Positions 8,588 through 28,629 of a DNA stretch of 43,078 bases are shown in pieces (within the stretch, counting starts at the first letter, position 1; each line of letters opens with the position of its first letter). The stretch is from a virus, in IMG/VR virus record IMGVR_UViG_3300043446_000524, positions 1 to 43,078 of that record; one strand, written 5' to 3'. Both the position numbers and the translations under genes were made by a program. The notes beneath the pieces are model-generated. The model ran no database searches, was not told the origin of the DNA, and saw only the letters and a program-made list of their open reading frames with translations.

Positions 8588-8770
8588 TCAGAACAGGGGT
8601 AGCTGGCGCTCGTCTTTTTCTTCAGTGTTGTTGGGAGTGTGCGTTTCTAGGTAGCGAACCATGCGCCGTACAAGTTCTTTTAGAAACTCTGGCCCCACCT
8701 CATCCCAATGTATTTCACAGTAGTTAAGCAACTCCGTGTCTGTCAGGCTTGTAGGTTGTATGTCTCGCAT
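8588..8770 (-). CDS. Small protein with C-terminal sliding-clamp-binding motif
   Basis: A 60-residue acidic helical protein between an HTH gene and the primase-helicase. Its last residues are RQLPLF, matching the bacterial beta-clamp-binding pentapeptide consensus (QLxLF), placed at the exact C-terminus where such motifs often act. I start it at the internal ATG (8770) because GGAG lies 6-7 bases upstream; an ATG at 8782 is possible but lacks a good ribosome site. It overlaps the end of the upstream HTH gene by 28 bases. The remaining fold is unknown. Clamp binding is inference from the motif and from its position among replication genes. Confidence 0.6.
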   Translation of the reverse strand: MRDIQPTSLTDTELLNYCEIHWDEVGPEFLKELVRRMVRYLETHTPNNTEEKDERQLPLF

Positions 8771-9021
8771 ATATGTCTCCATGCGTGATCGGCTGTTGGT
8801 TGCCTCTCAAGAATATTAATAAGTTCTTGTACACGTGAACGGTACGCAGGTGTTACCTCAACGCCCGATAGCCAGTTATAAACTGTTTGCCTAGTAGCAC
8901 CAGTAAATTTGGAAATACGTAGTACAGAGAAGTCTCGATGAATTGCCCAACGTCCAAGGCGCGAACCAAGGGAGCGCGGGGCATGTTTCACAATATTTTT
9001 TGTGCGGTCAGAATAGGGCAT
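8743..9021 (-). CDS. Helix-turn-helix DNA-binding protein
   Basis: A 92-residue basic protein with a predicted helix-turn-helix in the middle (FTGATRQTVYNWLSG, with the TVYNW recognition-helix pattern of XRE/Cro-like or recombinase-type HTHs). No other domain is visible. It sits between the probable SSB gene and the clamp-motif protein. A GGGGGC hairpin lies just upstream and there is no clear Shine-Dalgarno, so expression may be low. It is one candidate for the factor that reads the palindromes elsewhere in the window, but nothing in the sequence ties it to them. Confidence 0.6.
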   Translation of the reverse strand: MPYSDRTKNIVKHAPRSLGSRLGRWAIHRDFSVLRISKFTGATRQTVYNWLSGVEVTPAYRSRVQELINILERQPTADHAWRHICETYNLQA

Positions 9022-16428: not shown

Positions 16429-16676
16429 TTATTTCCCCTTGCTCGGATTGCTTGCGCGGCCACCTTTGTAATGTCTGACGCATATTCAGGATGTACAGCA
16501 AGCACATCACACACCTTCGCACACGCCTCGTTTTCTTCTGCTCTTGCGGCAGCGGCGACAAGGGCAGCGAAGCGTTCAAGTTCCTCTAGCCACCAGCCAT
16601 CGGTTATCCATACGTCGGTTTCGTAAACTTCAAACCCAGCCTCCCGCGCCAGCTTGATGATGTCTTCTCTGTTCAT
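16425..16676 (-). CDS. Hypothetical protein, duplicated N-terminal module
   Basis: 83 residues beginning MNREDIIKLAREAGF. The same opening (xxEDIIxxAREAGF) occurs in the next gene upstream, and a 20-base identical stretch is shared at the DNA level (16632-16651 and 16889-16908), showing recent duplication. The middle is Ala/Glu-rich helix with three Cys. Common small phage protein type; function unknown. Confidence 0.65.
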   Translation of the reverse strand: MNREDIIKLAREAGFEVYETDVWITDGWWLEELERFAALVAAAARAEENEACAKVCDVLAVHPEYASDITKVAAQAIRARGNK

Positions 16677-16933
16677 GATTCTTCCCCTTCTTTGTTACTC
16701 CATTCTTGCCACCTTGCTGCGATGAGATCTAATAAATGTTTAAGCAGCGATTGATCTGAATCAGATAAATCATCTCTACCTGCGTACTCAAACAGCAAGT
16801 TCCATATAGCTTCGCGCTCATGCTCGGCAACAAGATATGCAAAGTATTCAAGCTGATAAAAGGCATGAACAACCCCGTTGGAATCAGCAAACCCAGCCTC
16901 CCGCGCCATGCGGATGATGTCTTCTTTATCCAC
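16673..16933 (-). CDS. Hypothetical protein, paralogue of the downstream gene
   Basis: 86 residues from the GTG at 16933, which has GGGAG 7-8 bases upstream; the longer frame to 16978 only reads through the end of the upstream gene. The N-terminus (VDKEDIIRMAREAGF) duplicates that of the gene at 16425-16676, after which the two differ. ATGA overlap with the downstream gene. Confidence 0.6.
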   Translation of the reverse strand: MDKEDIIRMAREAGFADSNGVVHAFYQLEYFAYLVAEHEREAIWNLLFEYAGRDDLSDSDQSLLKHLLDLIAARWQEWSNKEGEES

Positions 16934-17303
16934 GGTTTTTCTCCCGCAGCTTGGCTTCGATGGCTCGGGCGAACTCATGCGTGTCTATCGTCACAAAATC
17001 GGTGTTGCTGACTTTGCACCATAGATCGCTTATCTCCTCATCCGTCAGCCCAACCCATTCACGCTTTGGTGGGGATGTGTAAAGGGGGTTGCATTTAAAT
17101 CCCATTTCATCCATATACCGTTTACTACGAGACACATCGCCGCCCTCTGATAGCCACGCCACCGGCTCTTGCTCTGTCTCCAGCGCTTGACGCAGGGCGG
17201 TGATAGCTTCGCTGTAGTAATTTTCATTGCCCGTTTCCGTCAACATCTCTGCGCTTGCATCCTCCAGCACCTCTATCGCTTCTTCAATAGCTTCTCTATC
17301 CAT
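16926..17303 (-). CDS. Hypothetical mosaic protein with PPKREWVGLT module
   Basis: 125 residues from the ATG at 17303 (GGGAG 7-8 bases upstream). The N-terminal helix is acidic; the C-terminal part contains SPPKREWVGLTDEEI and ends KLREKN, both shared with the next gene upstream. The two genes also share 30-base and 26-base identical DNA blocks. This looks like a duplicated C-terminal cassette joined to different N-termini. Function unknown. Confidence 0.6.
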   Translation of the reverse strand: MDREAIEEAIEVLEDASAEMLTETGNENYYSEAITALRQALETEQEPVAWLSEGGDVSRSKRYMDEMGFKCNPLYTSPPKREWVGLTDEEISDLWCKVSNTDFVTIDTHEFARAIEAKLREKNRG

Positions 17304-17559
17304 GATTCTTCTCCCGCAGCTTGGCTTCGATGGCGCAAGCAAAATCACCCCAGTGCTGATTTACTGAATGGATCTCTTGTATTTCATAAGCCGTCAGCCC
17401 AACCCATTCACGCTTTGGTGGTTTGCTTGAAATACAAGTAACCGTATACGGTTTGCCGCACTGACACTGCCATGCCGTAGGCCCTGGCCCATACCACACA
17501 CCGTCGATAAAACCTGTTCCACTATCCGTTGGTGTCTTTGCTGTTTTGTTTTCACTCAT
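17296..17559 (-). CDS. Hypothetical mosaic protein, second PPKREWVGLT copy
   Basis: 87 residues from the ATG at 17559, preceded by GGTGGTG. The N-terminal half has a WQCQCGKPYTVTC segment that could bind metal; the C-terminal half repeats KPPKREWVGLT and the ending EAKLREKN of the gene at 16926-17303. The start lies 3 bases after the stop of a newly recognised 47-residue membrane peptide gene. Confidence 0.6.
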   Translation of the reverse strand: MSENKTAKTPTDSGTGFIDGVWYGPGPTAWQCQCGKPYTVTCISSKPPKREWVGLTAYEIQEIHSVNQHWGDFACAIEAKLREKNHG

Positions 17560-19007: not shown

Positions 19008-19180
19008 GATTCACCTCCACTTAGTCTGAACTCAATACGCGCTCTGTCCAGTGCAGCAATACGCTTGCGCTCTGCAACAACTTTTGGATCTTTCCACGGG
19101 TACGGTTGTTTAAGAAGACGCCACTGTCTTTTGAACGTTTCGAGTACGTTTGTGCTTTCGCTTGTTGTCTTTATTTGCAT
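19004..19180 (-). CDS. 58-residue basic hypothetical protein
   Basis: A short frame beginning MQIKTTSESTNVLETFKRQW and ending IEFRLSGGES, rich in Arg/Lys. AGGAG lies before the ATG at 19180 and the stop is coupled by ATGA to the next gene. It overlaps the 3' end of the winged-helix gene by 71 bases in another frame. Function unknown; a nucleic-acid-binding peptide is possible given its charge. Confidence 0.6.
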   Translation of the reverse strand: MQIKTTSESTNVLETFKRQWRLLKQPYPWKDPKVVAERKRIAALDRARIEFRLSGGES

Positions 19181-19541
19181 CTCTAGCTCCTGTCATGTTG
19201 AATGGATCACTGAAAAAAGGTTCGGGTATGGTCACCCTTGTTTTGGCAAACTTCTTGCAATACATCTGGTCTTCGTTTTTCTGAAATAGCTTCTCCTGTT
19301 TTGTAGGTTCCATCGTTATAAACTTGTAGTGCCGCTCTGCCGTGATGTACGGCCTGTCGGGATCTTTCTTTAAGAAACTTTCAACACACCCCAACCGCGT
19401 GAGTCTGGTCATCAATGAGTAGACAGTGTTCTTGTCGATCTTTGTCTGCAAGGATATATCCCTGACAGTGGGTGGTGTTGTCCGCTTCTTAACGTACTTG
19501 AGTACCTTGAGTTGTTTATCGGTCAGGGGCTGTGGGGTCAT
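19110..19541 (-). CDS. Winged-helix DNA-binding protein
   Basis: 143 residues from the ATG at 19541 (AAAGGAG 7 bases upstream; a TTG three bases earlier is less likely). The N-terminal ~60 residues form a MarR/LexA-type winged helix: LTDKQLKVLKYV, TVRDISLQTKIDKNTVYSLM and LTRLGCVE. The C-terminal half is basic and probably disordered. It is a second candidate regulator of the leftward operons, besides the 92-residue HTH protein. Confidence 0.7.
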   Translation of the reverse strand: MTPQPLTDKQLKVLKYVKKRTTPPTVRDISLQTKIDKNTVYSLMTRLTRLGCVESFLKKDPDRPYITAERHYKFITMEPTKQEKLFQKNEDQMYCKKFAKTRVTIPEPFFSDPFNMTGARDANKDNKRKHKRTRNVQKTVASS

Positions 19542-20705: not shown

Positions 20706-21077
20706 TTACTCTCCAAAGTTAGTTTCAATACGGTGTACCGTGCTGATGTAGTCGTACAACGCCCCGTGTTCATCGACTTCGTCAAATGTTTCAGCGCCGT
20801 CCTCACCAATAGCGAGGAAGCGATAGTCAGCTTCAAAGTACTGATGCGCGTCTTTATATAACTGCTCGTGCGCTTGAACATCAGGGTAGTCTGGATACCA
20901 CTTCACATCATCCACTTCAAAGGTGATGAGCGGTTCTTCTTTGTAGTCGTGCTTAGTCTCATTAACAGCTTGATAAATGTTGGGGTCGTTCTTAGCTAGC
21001 ATGAGCGCAATGAACGCTTCACGGTCGTCAAACGATTTGAACTTTATGACATACGCAACATCTGATCTATATCCCAT
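20706..21077 (-). CDS. Hypothetical protein (MGYRSDVAYVI type)
   Basis: 123 residues beginning MGYRSDVAYVI, an opening I recognise from phage proteins of unknown function. It is acidic and aromatic (FEVDDVKWYPDYPDV, HQYFEADYRFLAIGED), suggesting a compact alpha/beta domain. AAGGAG precedes the ATG, and one of the GTAGAC-N5-GTCTAC palindromes lies 27 bases upstream of it. Confidence 0.7.
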   Translation of the reverse strand: MGYRSDVAYVIKFKSFDDREAFIALMLAKNDPNIYQAVNETKHDYKEEPLITFEVDDVKWYPDYPDVQAHEQLYKDAHQYFEADYRFLAIGEDGAETFDEVDEHGALYDYISTVHRIETNFGE

Positions 21078-21103: not shown

Positions 21104-21126
21104 TGAGTAGACATGATGTCTACTCA
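21104..21126. promoter_or_regulatory. Palindrome A, GTAGAC-N5-GTCTAC family
   Basis: 10-bp perfect arms (TGAGTAGACA / TGTCTACTCA) around a 3-base centre, in the gap upstream of the 123-residue gene. It shares its GTAGAC/GTCTAC core with four other sites at 24936, 26517, 27678 and 28134. Confidence 0.7.
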
Positions 21127-21131
21127 TGTAT

Positions 21132-21584
21132 TTATTCGACGCGCAAAACCTGAACTTCGTTATTGGACACACAGGTCTTGTAAGTCTTTGGCCCCCAATG
21201 TTTGGAAGCCCAGCCTGTTATAGAACTTTGTAGTGAGTTCGCATCGAAAGGTGTAATGGGTACACACGCAACATCACCAACTTGTAGTGAAGCCAAGTAT
21301 GGGTGATAGTGTTTGTGCATTGCGCCGTATGGATACAGCTTGCCAAACTGTTTCTTTTTCTTAGCGGGTGCACGAACAATCTCAAGCTCCCCGAACTCTT
21401 GACCATCGGTTGCTATAACTTTGTATTTGCAACCCGTGGCATTCAGTAATCGAATTGCTTGCTCGATGGTCTTTAGCGTGATGGCAGGTAACTGCTGCTG
21501 AACTGGTTTGGTTTGTTCCATGATGTGCTCCTGTTTGCGGTAAGAAGAAAGTGACACTGGTTGAAAGAGGTCAAGTTGGCTCAT
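21132..21584 (-). CDS. Hypothetical protein with N-terminal QLDLF clamp-like motif
   Basis: 150 residues. It begins MSQLDLFQPV, where QLDLF fits the bacterial beta-clamp-binding consensus. The rest includes a helix (TIEQAIRLLNATGCKYKVI) and a beta domain with PYGAMHKHYHPYLASL. No family recognised. AAGGAAGG precedes the start, and the gene follows the VWA protein by two bases. Confidence 0.65.
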   Translation of the reverse strand: MSQLDLFQPVSLSSYRKQEHIMEQTKPVQQQLPAITLKTIEQAIRLLNATGCKYKVIATDGQEFGELEIVRAPAKKKKQFGKLYPYGAMHKHYHPYLASLQVGDVACVPITPFDANSLQSSITGWASKHWGPKTYKTCVSNNEVQVLRVE

Positions 21585-21586
21585 GA

Positions 21587-22750
21587 TTAAATCCTTCCTT
21601 TGATGTGGATTGCTTTACCCTGCGGGGGGACGAAGGACTCGTTGTCAACGATGCCCCACAACGCAGCGCAAGGCACGACTGCATTGTTCCCATCGAGATA
21701 GCCATCGGTCAGCCAGATGACTGCACGTGGCTTGTACTGCTTCTCAGCGATATACTTCACAACACACTGTGGAGTCGTACCACCCCCACCCATTGGCTTC
21801 ATGAGCGTGGCAATCGAGTGATACTCATCAGGCTTGAACAACTGCTCGCCACACACGGACGTGTCCCACCAGATAACGCGCAGTGCATCGGGCATAACAG
21901 TCTGTGCGATCTGTGCAATCTCACCGAACAAGATGGGATATATCGGCCCCATCGAGCCTGACGTATCGCCAGCGATAATGACCTCGCCTTTGTTGTATGA
22001 GAAGTGTGAGGGCAGCAAGATACCGAGTGGTGCGAAACGCTTGTTAGGCGGCACGAACCGTGAGTGCTCATCACCCTTACAGATTGTGTCGAAGAACTCG
22101 CGCAGGTGTTGACGCCACTCGGTGCTACGTTTTGTAGCGTTGAGGTCAAGTCGTCCGCCACCCTTGTCGTTACCTGCTAGCTTATCAGCAAGCAGCTTGC
22201 CCTGCCGCCCTGCCTCATCGACTTGTCGGTGTGCCTCCTCAGTCTCAGCATCATCAAGCTCATCGAACAAGTGCTCATCGAAGCCACCCTCGCCACTATC
22301 CTCATCACCCTGATCAATGAGGTCACGCAGCACACGAAGAAAACCCCAACCCTTGTACTTGGCATCAACGAGTGGTGGTACGGTGGGACGCTCGACCCAT
22401 GTGAAGTTAGGATCAATCTCCTCGATGGTCAGGTTGATGACGTGATCCATAGCCATGTTGGACAGCTTGGGGTAACGCTTGCAAACATCTTTATACTCGA
22501 CACAGTGCTTGAGCATCTTGTGTAAGTTCTCGTGGATGCGTACATAGCGCAACTGCTTGCGACTCTGTGCAAGCACAAAGTCAGGGTTGTAATACTCATC
22601 ACGACCATTAGTCGCAGCCGTGGGCAGACGGTCAGTGATCTCAATCCTGCCCACCATTGCCACGCCGCTAAGCTGAGCAAACAACGCGTTACGTGTGAGG
22701 TCGATGCCTACAGCAGTCACACGCTCATGTGGTGTCATATCTTTATACAT
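21587..22750 (-). CDS. HExxH metallopeptidase-like / VWA protein (DUF2201 type)
   Basis: 387 residues. The N-terminal domain has RIHENLHKMLKH (H73, E74, H77) followed by PKLSNMAMDHVINLTI, the pattern of the putative metallopeptidase domain of DUF2201/COG3864 proteins. A linker rich in Asp/Glu/Gly follows. The C-terminal VWA domain has an intact MIDAS: DTSGS (D262, S264, S266), GGGTTP (T325/T326) and LTDG (D349). Such proteins pair with MoxR-type AAA ATPases, one of which is two genes upstream. Family placement is strong; the target of the system in this phage is unknown. Confidence 0.88.
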   Translation of the reverse strand: MYKDMTPHERVTAVGIDLTRNALFAQLSGVAMVGRIEITDRLPTAATNGRDEYYNPDFVLAQSRKQLRYVRIHENLHKMLKHCVEYKDVCKRYPKLSNMAMDHVINLTIEEIDPNFTWVERPTVPPLVDAKYKGWGFLRVLRDLIDQGDEDSGEGGFDEHLFDELDDAETEEAHRQVDEAGRQGKLLADKLAGNDKGGGRLDLNATKRSTEWRQHLREFFDTICKGDEHSRFVPPNKRFAPLGILLPSHFSYNKGEVIIAGDTSGSMGPIYPILFGEIAQIAQTVMPDALRVIWWDTSVCGEQLFKPDEYHSIATLMKPMGGGGTTPQCVVKYIAEKQYKPRAVIWLTDGYLDGNNAVVPCAALWGIVDNESFVPPQGKAIHIKGRI

Positions 22751-22768
22751 AGCTCTCTCCTTGGAAAT

Positions 22769-22784
22769 GGGGGCGTGTGCCCCC
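22769..22784 (-). terminator. GGGGGC-GTGT-GCCCCC hairpin between cassette genes
   Basis: A perfect 6-bp GC stem between the DUF3150-like and VWA genes. No U run follows on the leftward strand, so it more likely protects mRNA ends or adjusts the ratio of the two gene products than terminates fully. It is the twin of the hairpin at 9031-9046. Confidence 0.4.
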
Positions 22785-22788
22785 GAAA

Positions 22789-23661
22789 TTAAAAGTTAAA
22801 CTTATTGAGCAGATCGTCCACGTTCTTGCGCACGTCATCACGCACAGCCTCATTAGTGCGTAACTCCTTGGCATCCACACCCTGTAAGGCTTGCACCAGA
22901 CCGACACGCGCTTGCTCAAGCGTGTGGTCGTTGATGATGTTGAGGTGCTTGACCATGTCGCACAGCTCCAGCGCACCCGTGACAAGTGAGTCGTGGAACT
23001 TACGAGTCTTGCGATCACCGTCCACGTTGTCATAGCCCAGCCTGTCCTGCATACGCACGAGGTGCGTCTTGAGTCGCTCACGCACGTCAGACATCGCAAC
23101 CTCAACACGCTCATCAGCAAGCTTGGCTAACTTCTCCTGAAGTTCTTTCTGAGCGTCATTGCCTATGTCAACACGGAAGTCACCCGCACGTGGCACGGGC
23201 ATATAGTTAAGACGGAAGGCGAACTTACGCTCGATCTCGCTCACATCAGGATAGTCATCACGCTTGAACATGTCACCGAGCGCCATTGCCTGTGCTGTAA
23301 TCAGCGATGGGTACACACGGATGAAGTCCTCCACGAATGAGAAGAACGTCTGTTCGCTGTCCGTCATGCGTTGGTTAAACGCTATGAAGTTTGCTGTGGG
23401 CAGCAGCCTGATGCCGGTGTCTGACCACGGCATGGTGTTCTCGTACACGTATGTGCGGACGCTGCCAACGTATGTATTGATCACGTCCAGTTCGTTACGT
23501 CCTGCAAGCAGGTGCTTGTTGACGCGAGCTGCATCTTTAGCGGCAGCATTCTTGGATGTGACCACCTCGTCGGTGGTTTTCTTGTCCAGCTTACGCGCAG
23601 TCCATACTGATGCGTTGAACTCAACAAGCATCGCACAGGTATCAATGTTGTAACGTGTCAT
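22789..23661 (-). CDS. DUF3150-like protein of the AAA/VWA cassette
   Basis: 290 residues, almost all helical and charged, with no catalytic motif. Its position between a MoxR-like ATPase and a VWA protein, and its general character (long amphipathic helices, KELQEKLAKLADERVEVAMS), match the DUF3150 proteins that accompany such pairs in other phages. It may be the adaptor or substrate-binding part. The label is tentative; being part of the cassette is well supported by tight spacing. Confidence 0.6.
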   Translation of the reverse strand: MTRYNIDTCAMLVEFNASVWTARKLDKKTTDEVVTSKNAAAKDAARVNKHLLAGRNELDVINTYVGSVRTYVYENTMPWSDTGIRLLPTANFIAFNQRMTDSEQTFFSFVEDFIRVYPSLITAQAMALGDMFKRDDYPDVSEIERKFAFRLNYMPVPRAGDFRVDIGNDAQKELQEKLAKLADERVEVAMSDVRERLKTHLVRMQDRLGYDNVDGDRKTRKFHDSLVTGALELCDMVKHLNIINDHTLEQARVGLVQALQGVDAKELRTNEAVRDDVRKNVDDLLNKFNF

Positions 23662-23691
23662 GTTATTTCTCCTTGTGGTTGTGGGTACTGC

Positions 23692-24828
23692 TTAGTTCAA
23701 ATCCAAGAACTGCTTGGACTCACGCAACATGCGACCGAATGAATCGACACGCACGAATGTCGTGACCTTTGTGCTGTTACTTATTGCAGCAATAAACATG
23801 TGTTTGATCTCCTCGCGCATACGCTCAACGTATGTGGTCACAGCCTCAGCTTCCTCGCGTGTGTTAGCGAATGCCACGAACTGCTGCGCTTGAATGATCT
23901 GCGCCACGGGGTCTTGAACAAGTGGTGCGTTGGCAGGGTCGCGCACGATGAGACTGAAGTCTGGCAACGTGTTACCAAGTCTGATGTGTGTGCACAGGTT
24001 CTCAGCGAATGGGCCAATAGCACCCCACAGTTGAGCACGTACGAGGTTCATGCCCACATCATCAAGTGTCTTGACAATGTCAGACGCTGCCTCGTATGAG
24101 CGTGGGTTGACGTATGCGTCCTGCATCTCACGTGGGTTATAAATGTGCGGGTTATCCTTGGCTAGCGACTTGCCTGCATACTTGCCCCCCTCCTCGTAGT
24201 CGAGGAATGAATCGAATATCTGCGGATGCTTGACGGCACACGCGATCACCCGATAGTCCAGACCCTTGCGCTCAGCATACGGACGCCACTCGGTAAGTAT
24301 GGGCTTACGCATCTTGGTACGTATGAGTCGGCTGCGGATGTGTGCAGGGATGTTGTCACCGAGTCCCTCGATGCCGAGGTTCGTTGCCATGATGACGAGC
24401 GACCCTTCAGGGAAGTGATAGTCACCGACCCGATAGTCATACACCACAGGCGCAAGGATGTTCTTGACATAAGGCGCAGCCTTGGCGAACTCATCAATAA
24501 AGCACAGGATAGGACGCGAACCGTTAACACCGAGGCGATTCTTCTTGCTCAAACCAAAGCGCTCGTTGGGCAGCTCGCGTGATACACCTGCCTCACGGTC
24601 AATGTCAGGCATCCACACGCTACCGTCAGACAACTGAGTTGCGTCGATGGGGTCAACGGCTATGTGGTCAGCGAACTGAGGATCACGGCGCAGTGCGTGA
24701 TACACGGCAGTCTTGCCGATACCGTTCTCACCCTCAATGAGGATAGTACGGCGCAGTCCACGCTTGTGGTGCGACTTGATGATGGTTACGATCTCGTCAA
24801 ACGAAAGAAAGATTGATTGGTTATCCAT
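23692..24828 (-). CDS. MoxR-type AAA+ ATPase
   Basis: 378 residues with Walker A GENGIGKT (33-40), Walker B ILCFIDE (107-113), sensor-1 MATN (N150) and an arginine-rich stretch HIRSRLIR (163-170). The layout is that of MoxR/CbbQ/CobS-type ATPases, which drive VWA partner proteins. Phage copies are sometimes labelled CobS, but no cobalt-chelatase context is seen here. AAGGAG precedes the ATG, and the gene has its own near-consensus promoter about 40 bases upstream. It is the first gene of the AAA / DUF3150-like / VWA unit. Confidence 0.9.
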   Translation of the reverse strand: MDNQSIFLSFDEIVTIIKSHHKRGLRRTILIEGENGIGKTAVYHALRRDPQFADHIAVDPIDATQLSDGSVWMPDIDREAGVSRELPNERFGLSKKNRLGVNGSRPILCFIDEFAKAAPYVKNILAPVVYDYRVGDYHFPEGSLVIMATNLGIEGLGDNIPAHIRSRLIRTKMRKPILTEWRPYAERKGLDYRVIACAVKHPQIFDSFLDYEEGGKYAGKSLAKDNPHIYNPREMQDAYVNPRSYEAASDIVKTLDDVGMNLVRAQLWGAIGPFAENLCTHIRLGNTLPDFSLIVRDPANAPLVQDPVAQIIQAQQFVAFANTREEAEAVTTYVERMREEIKHMFIAAISNSTKVTTFVRVDSFGRMLRESKQFLDLN

Positions 24829-24869
24829 GCTTAACTCCTTGATTTATATGTGATTGTGTTACACAGTAG

Positions 24870-24898
24870 GTTATACAGCAGATTAGACATCATGTCAA
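24870..24898 (-). promoter_or_regulatory. Sigma70 promoter of the AAA/VWA cassette
   Basis: On the minus strand TTGACA (24893-24898), a 17-base spacer and TATAAC (24870-24875). Predicted start near 24862, giving a short leader with AAGGAG before the AAA gene. The -35 box is embedded in operator-like repeats: TTAGACATCATGTCAA and ATGTCAAGTATTAGACAT. Confidence 0.75.
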
Positions 24899-24935
24899 GT
24901 ATTAGACATTTAGTTCTCCTTAAGATGTTTGTGTA

Positions 24936-24956
24936 AGGTAGACGGGTTGTCTACCT
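24936..24956. promoter_or_regulatory. Palindrome B, GTAGAC-N5-GTCTAC family, with orphan leader
   Basis: 8-bp arms (AGGTAGAC / GTCTACCT). Downstream on the minus strand is AACATCTTAAGGAGAACTAA followed by ATG and only four codons before a stop (24895-24909). The same leader precedes a real gene at 27652, so here it appears to have lost its gene or to act as a leader peptide just ahead of the AAA promoter. Confidence 0.65.
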
Positions 24957-24970
24957 AACGGGGGGTGAAT

Positions 24971-25453
24971 TTACTCGTCGTTGTTGTGGACTATGCGTAC
25001 CGTGAGGCGACTGAGCGCGGTGTCAATCTTCTCCTCAAACATCTCATCAAACATGTCGCGTACTGCGCTGTCTGAGATGAGATCGTTCTCACTGATAGCG
25101 TCTTCAATCTGTGAGCTGAAGTCGTGGTTACCCACAGCTTCTTCAATGACATCCTCGAAGTCCATGCGTTGGACGCGCTCATTAACCGAAGCATCCACCA
25201 TTGATGCAAGGTTGTAGTCCGATATGTGTGCCTCGACGTGTGTCTCAATCAGCCTGTCGAACCATGTGGATGATTGAAGCAGGGTCTCCAGTGACTGCTC
25301 CACTTCAGGCTTGCGCTCGTGCATCTCTGCCTCAAGCTTGTCGAGCCTGACGTGTATGTCACGGATGATTCCGAGTTCACCAATACGGTGGAAGATGTGG
25401 TTGGTGATAGCGGTGATGATGCCGTCAATAAGTTTGATGTTGTTAGTGTCCAT
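24971..25453 (-). CDS. Acidic hypothetical protein
   Basis: 160 residues, strongly acidic, with repeated helical segments (MDFEDVIEEAVGNHDFSSQIEDAISENDLI). No catalytic motif. It is the last gene of the first leftward unit, ending just before palindrome B and the AAA-cassette promoter. The repeated short helices could be a protein-interaction scaffold or DNA mimic; that is speculation from charge alone. Confidence 0.65.
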   Translation of the reverse strand: MDTNNIKLIDGIITAITNHIFHRIGELGIIRDIHVRLDKLEAEMHERKPEVEQSLETLLQSSTWFDRLIETHVEAHISDYNLASMVDASVNERVQRMDFEDVIEEAVGNHDFSSQIEDAISENDLISDSAVRDMFDEMFEEKIDTALSRLTVRIVHNNDE

Positions 25454-25511
25454 AGTGTTTCTCCGTTTGTATAAGATGTTTGTGAGTGTGTATGAATGGT
25501 GTAAGTGTCAG

Positions 25512-25694
25512 CTAGTCATCATCGTTCTCCTTATCTTCAGTTTCTTTCAAGGCCAATTTGTACAGCTCCACGCACTCATCAGCGCATGTGGCTGTGTCGA
25601 GATAACCTGTGTCACGTAGTTCAATGAGCACAGCCTGTGCTCTGACTGCTTCTTCCCATACGTCTACCCTTCGTTTCCATATGCTCGTTGTCAT
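25512..25694 (-). CDS. Small hypothetical protein
   Basis: 60 residues; a helical core ends in a highly acidic tail (KETEDKENDDD). Strong GAGGAG site upstream. No family recognised. Confidence 0.65.
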   Translation of the reverse strand: MTTSIWKRRVDVWEEAVRAQAVLIELRDTGYLDTATCADECVELYKLALKETEDKENDDD

Positions 25695-25705
25695 GCTTGC
25701 TCTCC

Positions 25706-25954
25706 TCAGATGATGAACTTGTGTATGGGGTCAGGATCTAGTGGCCTTGTGGCACGACGCGTGGAGTTTTCAGGGTATGCACAGACCTGAAAGTCTTTAT
25801 CCCCAACGTCAGCGTACTCTGCGCCACACAGGTTGATGTCGTACCCACCCCAAGTGATCCAATCGTCAACGTGGCTTGTGTCCATGTCCACGTTGTTGAT
25901 ATAGGCTCGCAGGTAGCCCTCACAAAATATTGTCAGCGTCTCGATGCTTTCCAT
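25706..25954 (-). CDS. Hypothetical protein
   Basis: 82 acidic residues with aromatic patches (DDWITWGGYDINLCGAEYADVG). AGGAG precedes the ATG. Unknown function; sits in a run of early small genes with similar spacing. Confidence 0.6.
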   Translation of the reverse strand: MESIETLTIFCEGYLRAYINNVDMDTSHVDDWITWGGYDINLCGAEYADVGDKDFQVCAYPENSTRRATRPLDPDPIHKFII

Positions 25955-25955
25955 G

Positions 25956-26213
25956 TCACTCTCCTGTGTATAAGCTCATGTATTGATGACCCTTGAGTCC
26001 GAAGCGGAAGCCCATGTACTGTGTACCCTCGATGCAATAGAACACACACGCCGGATACTGCAACGCCATGCTGATCTGCATGTAGCGACTCAACTTCTGC
26101 TCGGTTCTTGATACAGCGTCACACCACTTGTACATATCGTGCACTGTTAAGCGTTTACTGTTGGGCCACTCGCGCAACTGCACGTCCCACAACTTCTTCT
26201 TACTTATTCCCAT
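25956..26213 (-). CDS. Hypothetical protein
   Basis: 85 residues, basic N-terminus, Tyr/Met-rich C-terminus (CVFYCIEGTQYMGFRFGLKG). AGGAG precedes the ATG at 26213; it overlaps the upstream gene by 10 bases. No family recognised. Confidence 0.6.
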   Translation of the reverse strand: MGISKKKLWDVQLREWPNSKRLTVHDMYKWCDAVSRTEQKLSRYMQISMALQYPACVFYCIEGTQYMGFRFGLKGHQYMSLYTGE

Positions 26214-26410
26214 GGTTCTCTCCTTGTGTATTGATAGTGTGCGTTCAGCACCATGTGTGCCTCCATCGCGTCACCCATCTGATCAAATCCATACTTCATA
26301 CCGTAGTCCAACGCTTCCTTCTCGGTATCGAAGAAGCCATAAACATCCATCGGCTCGTAGTTCCTGTGGCGCAACAGCACCCACTTGCCTGTTTCCTCGT
26401 TGTTCTCCAT
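26204..26410 (-). CDS. Hypothetical protein
   Basis: 68 residues, acidic and aromatic (EPMDVYGFFDTEKEALDYGMKYG). Its ribosome site (AGGAG) lies inside the end of the 29-residue membrane peptide gene, and its ATG starts one base after that gene's stop. Function unknown. Confidence 0.65.
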   Translation of the reverse strand: MENNEETGKWVLLRHRNYEPMDVYGFFDTEKEALDYGMKYGFDQMGDAMEAHMVLNAHYQYTRREPWE

Positions 26411-26411
26411 G

Positions 26412-26501
26412 TCAATCTCCTAGTATGAGTATGGTCAGCGCTACACCTAGCGCGAAGGCTATGGCGTAGCCAATTAGGGTGTCCCAAGTTTCGGGTGTCA
26501 T
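26412..26501 (-). CDS. 29-residue membrane peptide
   Basis: A tiny frame MTPETWDTLIGY... with one continuous hydrophobic helix (about residues 9-27) and a charged end. AAGGAG lies 7 bases before the ATG; the start overlaps the upstream stop by ATGA and the next ATG follows the stop by one base. The packing makes translation likely in spite of the size. A small membrane-acting early peptide is the best guess. Confidence 0.55.
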   Translation of the reverse strand: MTPETWDTLIGYAIAFALGVALTILILGD

Positions 26502-27022
26502 ATCTTTTCTCCTTGAGTAGACGAGTTGTCTACGTAAGGTGTGGTTGGTATGAGTTGTTTGGGTGGGCGTCCTCGCTTTCGTGGTGGGGTTGATAGTTTG
26601 GCGCTGTGTTTAGCGTCACGTTGTTCCTGCTTGAGTTGGTTGGCTTGTTGTTCGCGTATGGCTTTTTCCAGTAGGTGTAGTTTGAGTTGCGTTGGGCGTA
26701 GGCTCATGTGCTTGAGCATGGCGTGTCGGACTTTCATGTACTCGCTGATCTTGGCTCGGCGTTTGAGTTCGCGTTCATTCAGGATGCGCTCGGCCTCGAT
26801 GGGGGAGACATCACCTGCCGTGACTCGGTTGGCTAGCTCGTTGCGTGTGAGCTTGCTTGGTGGTTTGCGCTTGGGTCTGCAAGCCTTGCAACGGTTGGAT
26901 TCAACCCATGCGGTGGTGTTTCCACTGAGTCCTTTTCGCTTGGCTTCTTCGCGTGTTGCGCGGTACTTGAATAGGTTTGATGGAAGGGTTTGTTTGCATG
27001 TGATGCAGGTTCGTGTGTGCAT
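26498..27022 (-). CDS. Zinc-ribbon and AT-hook protein
   Basis: 174 residues from the ATG at 27022 (AGGA about 12 bases upstream; the TTG at 27043 lacks a ribosome site). N-terminal CITC and a later CKAC form a four-Cys zinc site. A long basic helical middle follows, then RKRGRPPKQ, a canonical AT-hook core (RGRP). This combination suggests a DNA-binding protein for AT-rich sites, perhaps acting on the TA-rich region just upstream of its own gene. The zinc site could also belong to a degenerate HNH fold. Palindrome C lies within its last codons. Confidence 0.7.
   Translation of the reverse strand: MHTRTCITCKQTLPSNLFKYRATREEAKRKGLSGNTTAWVESNRCKACRPKRKPPSKLTRNELANRVTAGDVSPIEAERILNERELKRRAKISEYMKVRHAMLKHMSLRPTQLKLHLLEKAIREQQANQLKQEQRDAKHSAKLSTPPRKRGRPPKQLIPTTPYVDNSSTQGEKI
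26517..26533. promoter_or_regulatory. Palindrome C, GTAGAC-N5-GTCTAC family (inside coding sequence)
   Basis: 6-bp arms around GAGTT, located in the 3' end of the AT-hook gene (encoding VDNSST) and 16 bases before the start of the 29-residue peptide gene. Its presence inside coding sequence suggests the element is selected for itself. Confidence 0.6.
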
Positions 27023-27344
27023 TTTCTGTCTAATCCTTGACAATAAATACCAAAAGTGTCCACTTTGTCCACTTGGCTAGTGGACATTGGCGCTAGCCTG
27101 TAGTTTAAGGGTTTGTAATTGATTCATAAATTTAGTCCTTTTTTTCTAGTGGACATTGGTTTGCCCAATAGAATCAGGGTGTTTGGGAAAAGTGTCCAAG
27201 TGTCCACCAAATTTTAAGAAAAACGAAAAGGAAGCTACTTTTTTAAGAAGCGAGGACAAACGCAGGTCAATCAGCCTATAAGAATAATAACGTCCAAATA
27301 AATACGTATATATATAGAGTAGACAGTAAGACATATATATATAG

Positions 27345-27365
27345 AAGCCCCGTGGGACGGGGCTT
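27345..27365. terminator. GC hairpin in noncoding region
   Basis: AAGCCCCGT-GGG-ACGGGGCTT, a perfect 9-bp stem. There is no long U run on either strand; CUAUAUAUA follows on the minus strand. Possible terminator or structured element next to the TA tracts. Confidence 0.5.
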
Positions 27366-27422
27366 TGCGCTTGTCCACGCTGGTGTCCACGTGGATAAAA
27401 AACTGGAAAGCACAAAAAAACA

Positions 27423-27461
27423 CTCCTTAAGATGTTAAGGAGAACTTCTCCCTAACATCTT
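27423..27461 (-). promoter_or_regulatory. Attenuator-like pair of mutually exclusive hairpins
   Basis: On the minus strand, CTCCTTAA-CATC-TTAAGGAG (27423-27442) is an 8-bp stem followed by TG and seven T, a good intrinsic terminator. A competing stem pairs 27446-27461 with 27429-27444 (15 of 16 bp) and would use the terminator's left arm. It lies just after the stop of the 60-residue gene. Confidence 0.6.
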
Positions 27462-27469
27462 GCTGAGAA

Positions 27470-27652
27470 CTACTGAAGCCAAAGATGGCGTTTGTCCTTG
27501 TTGTATTGGGCAACGAGCTTGAGTAGTTCGCTTGGGTTGGGGGTGCGTGTGCCACGTTCAAGACCGCCATAAAACTTCTGACGCTCCATTTGTTGGGCAG
27601 TGAGTTGCTCGCGTTCAAAGGTGATGTACCAGCTGGGTTTAGCTTTAGCCAT
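27470..27652 (-). CDS. Small hypothetical protein
   Basis: 60 basic residues (MAKAKPSWYITFEREQLTAQ ... NKDKRHLWLQ). Leader CATCTCAAGGAGAACTAAC provides an ideal ribosome site. Palindrome D lies 26 bases upstream of the start and the attenuator-like structure just downstream of the stop. No family recognised. Confidence 0.65.
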   Translation of the reverse strand: MAKAKPSWYITFEREQLTAQQMERQKFYGGLERGTRTPNPSELLKLVAQYNKDKRHLWLQ

Positions 27653-27677
27653 GTTAGTTCTCCTTGAGATGTTGGTG

Positions 27678-27702
27678 CTAAGTAGACGGGATGTCTACTT
27701 AG
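27678..27702. promoter_or_regulatory. Palindrome D, GTAGAC-N5-GTCTAC family
   Basis: 10-bp perfect arms (CTAAGTAGAC / GTCTACTTAG) in the gap between the first two leftward genes. The outer bases differ from palindrome A (TGAGTAGAC / GTCTACTCA) but remain complementary. Confidence 0.7.
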
Positions 27703-27706
27703 TTGA

Positions 27707-28120
27707 TCAGAGGGCAGCTTTGAGTGCGCGGACTTGCGCGGGTGTGAGTTCCTTCTTGATCTTGGCAAGCATGAGCGCGACCTTGTCGGTGCGCTTCTTG
27801 GGTTTGTTGCTTGGCTTGCGCGGCTCGGTAAGACCGAGCGCGGACATGATGCGATTGATTTGCTTCTGCCGCATGGCGTAGTCGCTGTGGTCTTTGTTGT
27901 AGGCGATGCCTAAGCCTATGTCTGCACCACGTGTGCGTTCGACATACAGCTCGCCTGAGCCTGAGTAATAGAACTCATCACACGCCACGATGAGCGTGTG
28001 TAGGACGGTGTGAAAGTCCTCGCCTTCTACGATGGATTTGAGTTCACGCACTTTGTCCGCAAAGGACTCACCTGCACGAAAGACGGCGTAGGTGGCTTTC
28101 TTGATTGCTTTGGTATCCAT
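27707..28120 (-). CDS. First gene of the leftward block, hypothetical
   Basis: 137 residues from the ATG at 28120 (GGAAGGAA just upstream); an earlier frame start at 28141 would overlap palindrome E and lacks a ribosome site. The first ~90 residues are a mixed alpha/beta region; the C-terminus is Lys/Pro-rich then helical (KPSNKPKKRTDKVALMLAKI ...). A DNA-binding tail is possible. Being the first leftward gene behind strong promoters, it is a candidate immediate-early protein. Confidence 0.65.
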   Translation of the reverse strand: MDTKAIKKATYAVFRAGESFADKVRELKSIVEGEDFHTVLHTLIVACDEFYYSGSGELYVERTRGADIGLGIAYNKDHSDYAMRQKQINRIMSALGLTEPRKPSNKPKKRTDKVALMLAKIKKELTPAQVRALKAAL

Positions 28121-28133
28121 AACTTTTCCTTCC

Positions 28134-28150
28134 GTAGACATGTTGTCTAC
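28134..28150. promoter_or_regulatory. Palindrome E, GTAGAC-N5-GTCTAC family
   Basis: 7-bp arms (GTAGACA / TGTCTAC) around TGT, 14 bases upstream of the first leftward gene and touching its ribosome-site region. Confidence 0.7.
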
Positions 28151-28251: not shown

Positions 28252-28280
28252 CAAAACAAAAAACCACGCAAACGGCGTGG
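28252..28280 (-). terminator. Leader terminator in the early leftward transcript
   Basis: On the minus strand CCACGC-CGTTT-GCGTGG followed by TTTTTTGTTTT. It lies between the leftward promoters and the first gene, so early transcripts must read through it. This suggests attenuation, antitermination or release of a small leader RNA. Confidence 0.55.
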
Positions 28281-28310
28281 CAACGTATGGCTGAGCAACT
28301 CCCAACCATG

Positions 28311-28338
28311 ACTATAGTTTACCACAACGTGTTGCCAA
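28311..28338 (-). promoter_or_regulatory. Possible second leftward promoter
   Basis: TTGGCA (28333-28338), 16-base spacer, TATAGT (28311-28316) on the minus strand. Predicted start near 28304, about 30 bases before the leader terminator. Weaker than the promoter at 28601-28629. Confidence 0.45.
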
Positions 28339-28472
28339 GAACTCTAGGGGGTTATGCGATTTTGCCGTTTGGCGACCCCACTCACCCCGTATCCCCCCAG
28401 ATGTGGCAAACGCAGCGGCGTGGCTACGGACACTATTTGTCTCCAACACCACATAATTTTTACAAACTCTCA

Positions 28473-28562
28473 ACCACGCAACGCCTAAACCACGCAACGC
28501 CTAAACCACGCAACGCCTAAACCACGCAACGCCTAAACCACGCAACGCCTAAACCACGCAAC
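28473..28562. repeat. Five tandem 16-bp iterons plus a partial sixth
   Basis: ACCACGCAACGCCTAA repeated exactly at 28473, 28489, 28505, 28521 and 28537, then ACCACGCAAC at 28553. The copies are identical and have no gaps. Single related CCACGC/GCGTGG sites lie nearby at 28264-28280. The 16-bp period and position beside the main promoter suggest protein-binding iterons of an origin or regulatory site. Confidence 0.9.
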
Positions 28563-28600
28563 ACCCCCCACCACTAAACCAAAAGCACCCCCTACAAAAA

Positions 28601-28629
28601 ATTATAAAAATTCATACAATAAATGTCAA
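28601..28629 (-). promoter_or_regulatory. Perfect-consensus sigma70 leftward promoter
   Basis: TTGACA (28624-28629), exactly 17 bases, TATAAT (28601-28606) on the minus strand. Transcription would start near 28594, cross the iterons and reach the first early gene after about 470 bases of leader. Confidence 0.85.

Follow-up and report, generated by a model that had tools for sequence, protein, structure and literature searches.

Lineage-specific palindromes at early gene starts suggest an exchangeable switch for gene control in a group of phages

The record IMGVR_UViG_3300043446_000524 of an uncultured bacterial virus from IMG/VR (43,078 nucleotides), analyzed here from end to end and referred to as the window, carries the palindrome GTAGAC-N5-GTCTAC (GTAGACNNNNNGTCTAC) at several places in a leftward block of early genes. 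What are these palindromes for, and what recognizes them? The initial annotation of this DNA had reported five such sites and none in the virion genes, and both statements were borne out. Exactly five copies are present, compared with none in 100 shuffled sequences (mean 0.00, maximum 0). Scanning the whole record with one or two mismatches allowed revealed no additional site, so the virion genes are without any. The annotation had also placed four sites before start codons and one inside coding sequence. The placement before starts was right, except that it applies to all five: each is followed by a Shine-Dalgarno (SD) sequence and a start codon of the leftward block, at gaps of 13-29 nt (Table 1). 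The site inside coding sequence, S3, indeed falls in the last codons of the 174-aa gene while also standing ahead of the next start.

Relatives were gathered through the AAA ATPase encoded in the block, which gave 56 loci at 43-95% identity. Genes in these relatives were called with a simple script and many of the records are fragments; the sites of related genomes are not independent, and all P values are indicative only. Conservation in related phages, on which the initial annotation had staked its proposal, held for the sites themselves in close relatives and for the layout in distant ones. The close relatives keep all or most sites at matching gene starts; the arms do not vary there, and the flanks drift. 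In the distant relatives the layout persists but the palindrome is another one, identical inside one genome and different between genomes. Each genome has one perfect palindrome at 3-10 places in its early block. Written as half-site and spacer length, the palindromes of the relatives include GGACAG-4, GGACGG-4, GGGGAC-6, GTGGAC-5, GTGGAG-5, GAGGTG-5, GGGTTC-4, GTGGGA-5, TGGGAC-5, GCAGAG-5, GTTGAC-5, GGTGTG-5 and TGTGTC-5. In full records the sites are grouped in a stretch of about 7-10 kb of the early block next to the AAA gene, and degenerate copies are almost nil. An SD-led start lies within 55 nt after 86 of 125 sites from 26 loci (69%), compared with 16.5% of random control positions.

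Which gene changes when the palindrome changes? Two natural experiments bear on this question. The window and genome G001 (GGACAG) share most early genes at 55-96% identity, including the AAA gene at 90%, but the first gene of the window block, S5, has no counterpart in G001. In its place G001 has a different 144-aa gene, whose only kin is that of G002 (GGACGG). L132 (GGGGAC) and L131 (GGACGG) encode AAA proteins that are 98-99% identical and have nearly all genes in common, but their S5 genes are unrelated and their sites differ. Before the 290-aa gene of these two genomes, the flanks of the site align closely and the palindrome has been exchanged in place. S5 was the only sizeable gene found replaced in both comparisons, and several short genes likewise differ between genomes.

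The same pattern was found in pairwise comparisons of 23 genomes. Where two genomes have one palindrome in common, as in 25 pairs, they always share a full-length S5 (at least 61% identity). Conversely, none of the 18 pairs with different palindromes and AAA proteins at least 80% identical (81-99%) has full-length S5 similarity; they show either no match or a short C-terminal one. A further contig, L234, was found solely by its type-B S5 (31% identity), and the prediction for it was met: it carries GGACGG-N4-CCGTCC twice, flanking its S5 gene. The S5 genes of some lineages, such as L158 and L174, were not identified, so the tracking covers about 10 lineages. Within this range, the comparisons showed that only the S5 gene tracks the palindrome type, one to one. 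The proteins that the initial annotation had put forward for gel shifts proved poor candidates, because both are conserved across lineages with different palindromes. In G001 the 92-residue helix-turn-helix (HTH) protein (8743-9021) is 93% identical, and the 143-residue protein (19110-19541), described in that annotation as a winged helix, is 79% identical; in G002 the HTH protein is 84% identical.

The S5 proteins fall into two types. Type A (A1, 16 sequences) was predicted to have three helices, a two-stranded wing and another helix and to end, after a basic linker, in a helical hairpin that shows the pattern D-V ... LT-AQ ... L-AL. Type B was predicted to be all helical at its N terminus (predicted local distance difference test, pLDDT, 76). 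The two types align over the C-terminal 37 residues only (hhalign E 9.5e-8). From this we infer, as the simplest reading, that S5 joins a variable reader domain at the N terminus to a constant tail. The winged-helix-like structure matches of type A all had E values above 0.5 and were not significant, and the haemagglutinin matches from the profile search were regarded as chance. The window S5 has no match in Pfam or PHROG. No relative of type A or type B was found in 50,697 phage records (searched by tblastn for the window S5), and none was found in bacterial genomes.

We consider it probable, on the strength of these sequence comparisons, that the palindromes are dyad operators of S5 and that S5 is an autoregulated regulator of the early genes. 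Early transcription from the two upstream promoters (Table 1) would produce S5 first. As a dimer, the protein might then bind every 17-bp dyad in double-stranded DNA. The variable domain at its N terminus would read the GTAGAC half-site, and the conserved helical tail at its C terminus would either dimerize or contact a common partner. Bound S5 would block RNA polymerase coming from the upstream promoters and stop elongation or, less likely, translation, so that accumulated S5 would shut off its own gene and individual early genes. A roadblock seems the most likely mode of repression, since overlap of a site with a sigma-70 promoter is close to absent and the usual position is after a stop codon and ahead of the following SD sequence. 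Strong sigma-70 matches were present at 3% of sites and 2% of controls. The idea that the sites are operators of sigma-70 promoters was rejected on this lack of enrichment; the exceptions with a promoter at the site are three AAA-gene sites, in L151, L166 and L171. Hairpin promoters of an N4-like virion RNA polymerase seem unlikely as well: the 1838-aa protein had no match in solved structures, and loops outside the window clade are non-directional. Related phages would have swapped the S5 gene and changed the address of their sites accordingly, giving each lineage its own specificity. More tentatively, and with somewhat less than even confidence, S5 might represent a new class of regulator, in which unrelated N-terminal recognition domains (A and B) are swapped on a constant C-terminal tail and the whole regulon is re-addressed by local replacement of 16-18 bp at gene starts, among neighbours up to 99% identical.

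Several observations weigh against S5 as a DNA-binding dimer, and some of them would suit an RNA element better. The window clade has a directional spacer, A-N-C-N-Y, at 5/5 sites, as an RNA loop could have. In the GGGGAC clade the spacer has 4, 6 or 7 nt, with 6 and 7 in one genome and 4 and 6 in another. This is evidence against a rigid dimer, because a rigid dimer would not tolerate such variation and an RNA loop would; a flexible linker between the reader and the dimer domain could reconcile it. The frequent placement before SD sequences also fits an mRNA element. On the protein side, the model confidence of type A is moderate (pLDDT 70), only type A is winged-helix-like while type B is all helical, and neither type has a significant match among solved structures. 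Finally, two GGACAG phages keep one GTAGAC site each, S2 in L231 and S1 in L230. Single leftover sites at different loci are what would be expected if the re-addressing were recent and piecemeal.

The RNA alternative is that the palindromes form mRNA stem-loops before SD sequences and that S5 is a translational regulator binding RNA, or an RNA-processing factor, with lineage-specific recognition of the stem. All five window leaders fold well (z -2.0 to -4.3), most sites have no promoter, and a terminal G-U pair is present in both L132 and L133. However, the stems are invariant and the loops vary, which is the reverse of the usual constraint on RNA, and the arms never change by compensation, so that no compensated stem variants were seen within genomes. 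Imperfect sites, in which G-U pairs could be weighed against A-C mismatches, were few. Moreover, loops are flipped within single genomes: AAAAC and GTTTT occur together in L143, and AAAT and ATTT in L124, as exact reverse complements. Outside the window clade, spacers of one genome are as similar when flipped (0.43) as when unflipped (0.42), against 0.33 between genomes. About 31% of sites have no SD-led start within 55 nt. Some lie before terminator-like hairpins or deep in coding sequence: the S5 gene of L139 has one 117 nt into its coding sequence, and that of L143 has one 287 nt in. An S5 gene with its site within its own coding sequence is seen in the GTGGAG and GGGACA-3 lineages. The composition of the spacers also favours DNA. 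The 42 type-B sites have AATT, ATTT or AAAT only and never ATAT, and TpA is scarce in spacers in general (5 observed, 25.4 expected; the observed/expected ratio in flanks is 0.77), although avoidance of UpA in RNA loops could produce this depletion as well. In view of these points, an RNA hairpin regulon seems rather unlikely, and we judged recognition of double-stranded DNA about twice as likely. The initial annotation had offered a dimeric operator family and RNA hairpins selected for pairing as the two options; the former is now the better supported and the latter the weaker, and neither is proven.

It is also conceivable that a different protein binds the operators and is merely co-inherited with the S5 gene. 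The link to S5 is correlative and several short genes vary between genomes as well, but S5 was the only sizeable gene found replaced in both natural experiments, and the link holds even for L234, a separate contig with a distant S5. We regard this explanation as improbable. A still smaller chance, which we would put as very slight, is left to passive repeats (REP-like, i.e. like repetitive extragenic palindromic sequences, or recombination boundaries) that aid the shuffling of cassettes without any binding protein. The sites do lie at cassette boundaries, and the adjacent small genes vary between relatives. Nevertheless, passive repeats would hardly be re-addressed in step with one gene, keep their arms invariant while the flanks drift, and have copies only in the early block.

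The initial annotation had further described outer arms that differ between the sites and stay complementary. Extensions are present at three of the five window sites (TGA/TCA, AG/CT and CTAA/TTAG). Sites S3 and S5 have none in the window, nor do they in the close relatives inspected. When the 3' flanks were shuffled among the sites of each genome, arm pairing was no better than in the shuffled sets (87 sites in 17 lineages; mean run 1.10, expected 1.13; P = 0.63). The same shuffle in the window alone gave P = 0.06. A value of P = 0.0035 came from four related genomes of the same clade; their sites, however, are copies of one another by orthology and do not constitute independent evidence. Because two sites never extend and pairing is no better than shuffled, covariation of the outer arms is not a general property of these genomes. 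The claim is not supported as it was phrased, and outer-arm covariation was discarded as evidence for RNA. A known RNA family was likewise rejected, since a search of Rfam gave no match at the gathering threshold.

Table 1. Palindromic sites, genes and promoter-like sequences of the early block in the window. Spacers of the sites are read on the minus strand, which is the direction of the genes.
Feature	Coordinates	Strand	Description
Site S1	21107..21123	-	GTAGAC ATCAT GTCTAC; 29 nt 5' of the 123-aa gene
Site S2	24938..24954	-	GTAGAC AACCC GTCTAC; 28 nt 5' of the four-codon open reading frame (ORF) preceding the AAA ATPase gene
Site S3	26517..26533	-	GTAGAC AACTC GTCTAC; within the 3' end of the 174-aa gene; 15 nt 5' of the 29-aa gene
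Site S4	27682..27698	-	GTAGAC ATCCC GTCTAC; 29 nt 5' of the 60-aa gene
Site S5	28134..28150	-	GTAGAC AACAT GTCTAC; 13 nt 5' of the S5 gene start
123-aa gene	20706..21077	-	Downstream of S1
MoxR-like AAA ATPase gene	23692..24828	-	378 aa; query used for finding relatives
Four-codon ORF MSNT	24895..24909	-	With SD; kept behind S2 in relatives
29-aa gene	26412..26501	-	Hydrophobic small protein; downstream of S3
174-aa gene	26498..27022	-	3' end holds S3
60-aa gene	27470..27652	-	Downstream of S4; weak HTH_3 match under the Pfam cutoff
S5 gene	27707..28120	-	137 aa; first gene of the early block; proposed cognate regulator with variable N-terminal domain and conserved C-terminal tail
Second promoter-like site	28311..28338	-	TTGGCA-16-TATAGT; points into the early block
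Perfect sigma-70-like promoter	28601..28629	-	TTGACA-17-TATAAT; points into the early block

Other elements were observed around the sites. Just downstream (leftward) of the perfect promoter, a 16-bp unit, CTAAACCACGCAACGC, is repeated in six tandem copies (28469-28580). A terminator-like hairpin with a T run (28263-28281) follows the second promoter-like site by about 30 nt and stands ahead of the S5 gene. The leaders of L131 and L137 have a copy of their lineage palindrome with a T run in a similar place. In L234 (7893-7985), the palindrome is followed by an intrinsic-terminator-like hairpin with seven T and then by the SD sequence of the S5 gene, a possible attenuator. Behind S2, the mini-ORF MSNT is followed after about 80 nt by the AAA ATPase gene and is kept in close relatives. 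The interval between S2 and that gene (24863-24909) also has a promoter-like TTGACA-17-TATAAC, which overlaps with another inverted repeat, TGTCTAATACTTGACA. Different palindromes follow one site in each of L166, L165 and L172 (GATGTCAAATATTTGACATC, CATGTCAAATTTTTGACATG and GCTGACATTTTGTCAGC). Neighbouring small genes of the window (16631-16944 and 16921-17347) contain imperfect direct repeats of 57 nt, which are 81-84% identical. Farther away, Pseudomonas phage KPP25, a distant relative by its DNA polymerase, had no such repeats in the part examined. In Rhizobium phage RHph_TM3_14A (L225, MN988472.1) a degenerate palindrome, (G)TTACC-N5/6-GGTAA(C), recurs about 38 times across the early genes and less densely in the virion genes, with many copies within coding sequence; these form a distinct repeat family. 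Other genes of this phage encode DNA polymerase I and an SNF2 helicase, and two are annotated as ATPase and metallopeptidase genes.

Taken together, the comparisons suggest a new, exchangeable switch for phage gene control. If S5 does read the palindromes, they would make up a natural modular system of address and reader that needs no promoters at its sites. The approximately 10 matched regulator-site pairs provided by nature, some in near-identical genomes, would make the rewiring of a regulon upon a regulator swap directly testable, and they might be a source of orthogonal switches. This layer of control appears undescribed, because no S5 relative was found among cultured-phage records.

Classical dyad operators of small autoregulated phage repressors are short interrupted palindromes with a variable spacer. 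The sites described here resemble them in the interrupted palindrome, in the small protein proposed to be autoregulated and in its possible winged helix. They differ in that most are without a promoter and stand before many genes inside one operon. The stoperators of Cluster A mycobacteriophages are asymmetric, lie mainly in one orientation, are spread genome-wide and are bound by a monomeric HTH repressor, which is thought to be autoregulated and is reported to terminate transcription elongation (PMC6550527, PMC9283540). As in Cluster A, there are many copies of one lineage-specific motif, and divergence of the motif follows that of one phage regulator. Autoregulation and a stop of elongation are also proposed here. 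Unlike stoperators, the present sites are perfect dyads in every lineage and confined to the early block, and the window S5, unlike the Cluster A repressor, matches no known family. In Cluster K, the start-associated sequence (SAS), an asymmetric 13-bp repeat 5'-GGGATAGGAGCCC, is found at the translation starts of a subset of genes, some with extended start-associated sequences (ESAS), imperfect 17-bp inverted repeats with a variable spacer, just upstream; the consensus differs between subclusters (PMC3203893). Our palindromes are similarly tied to translation starts. In contrast, an asymmetric 13-bp repeat of the GGGATAGGAGCCC type was not matched; the present repeat is one short, perfect dyad ahead of a normal SD sequence, and, unlike SAS and ESAS, it tracks a phage protein.

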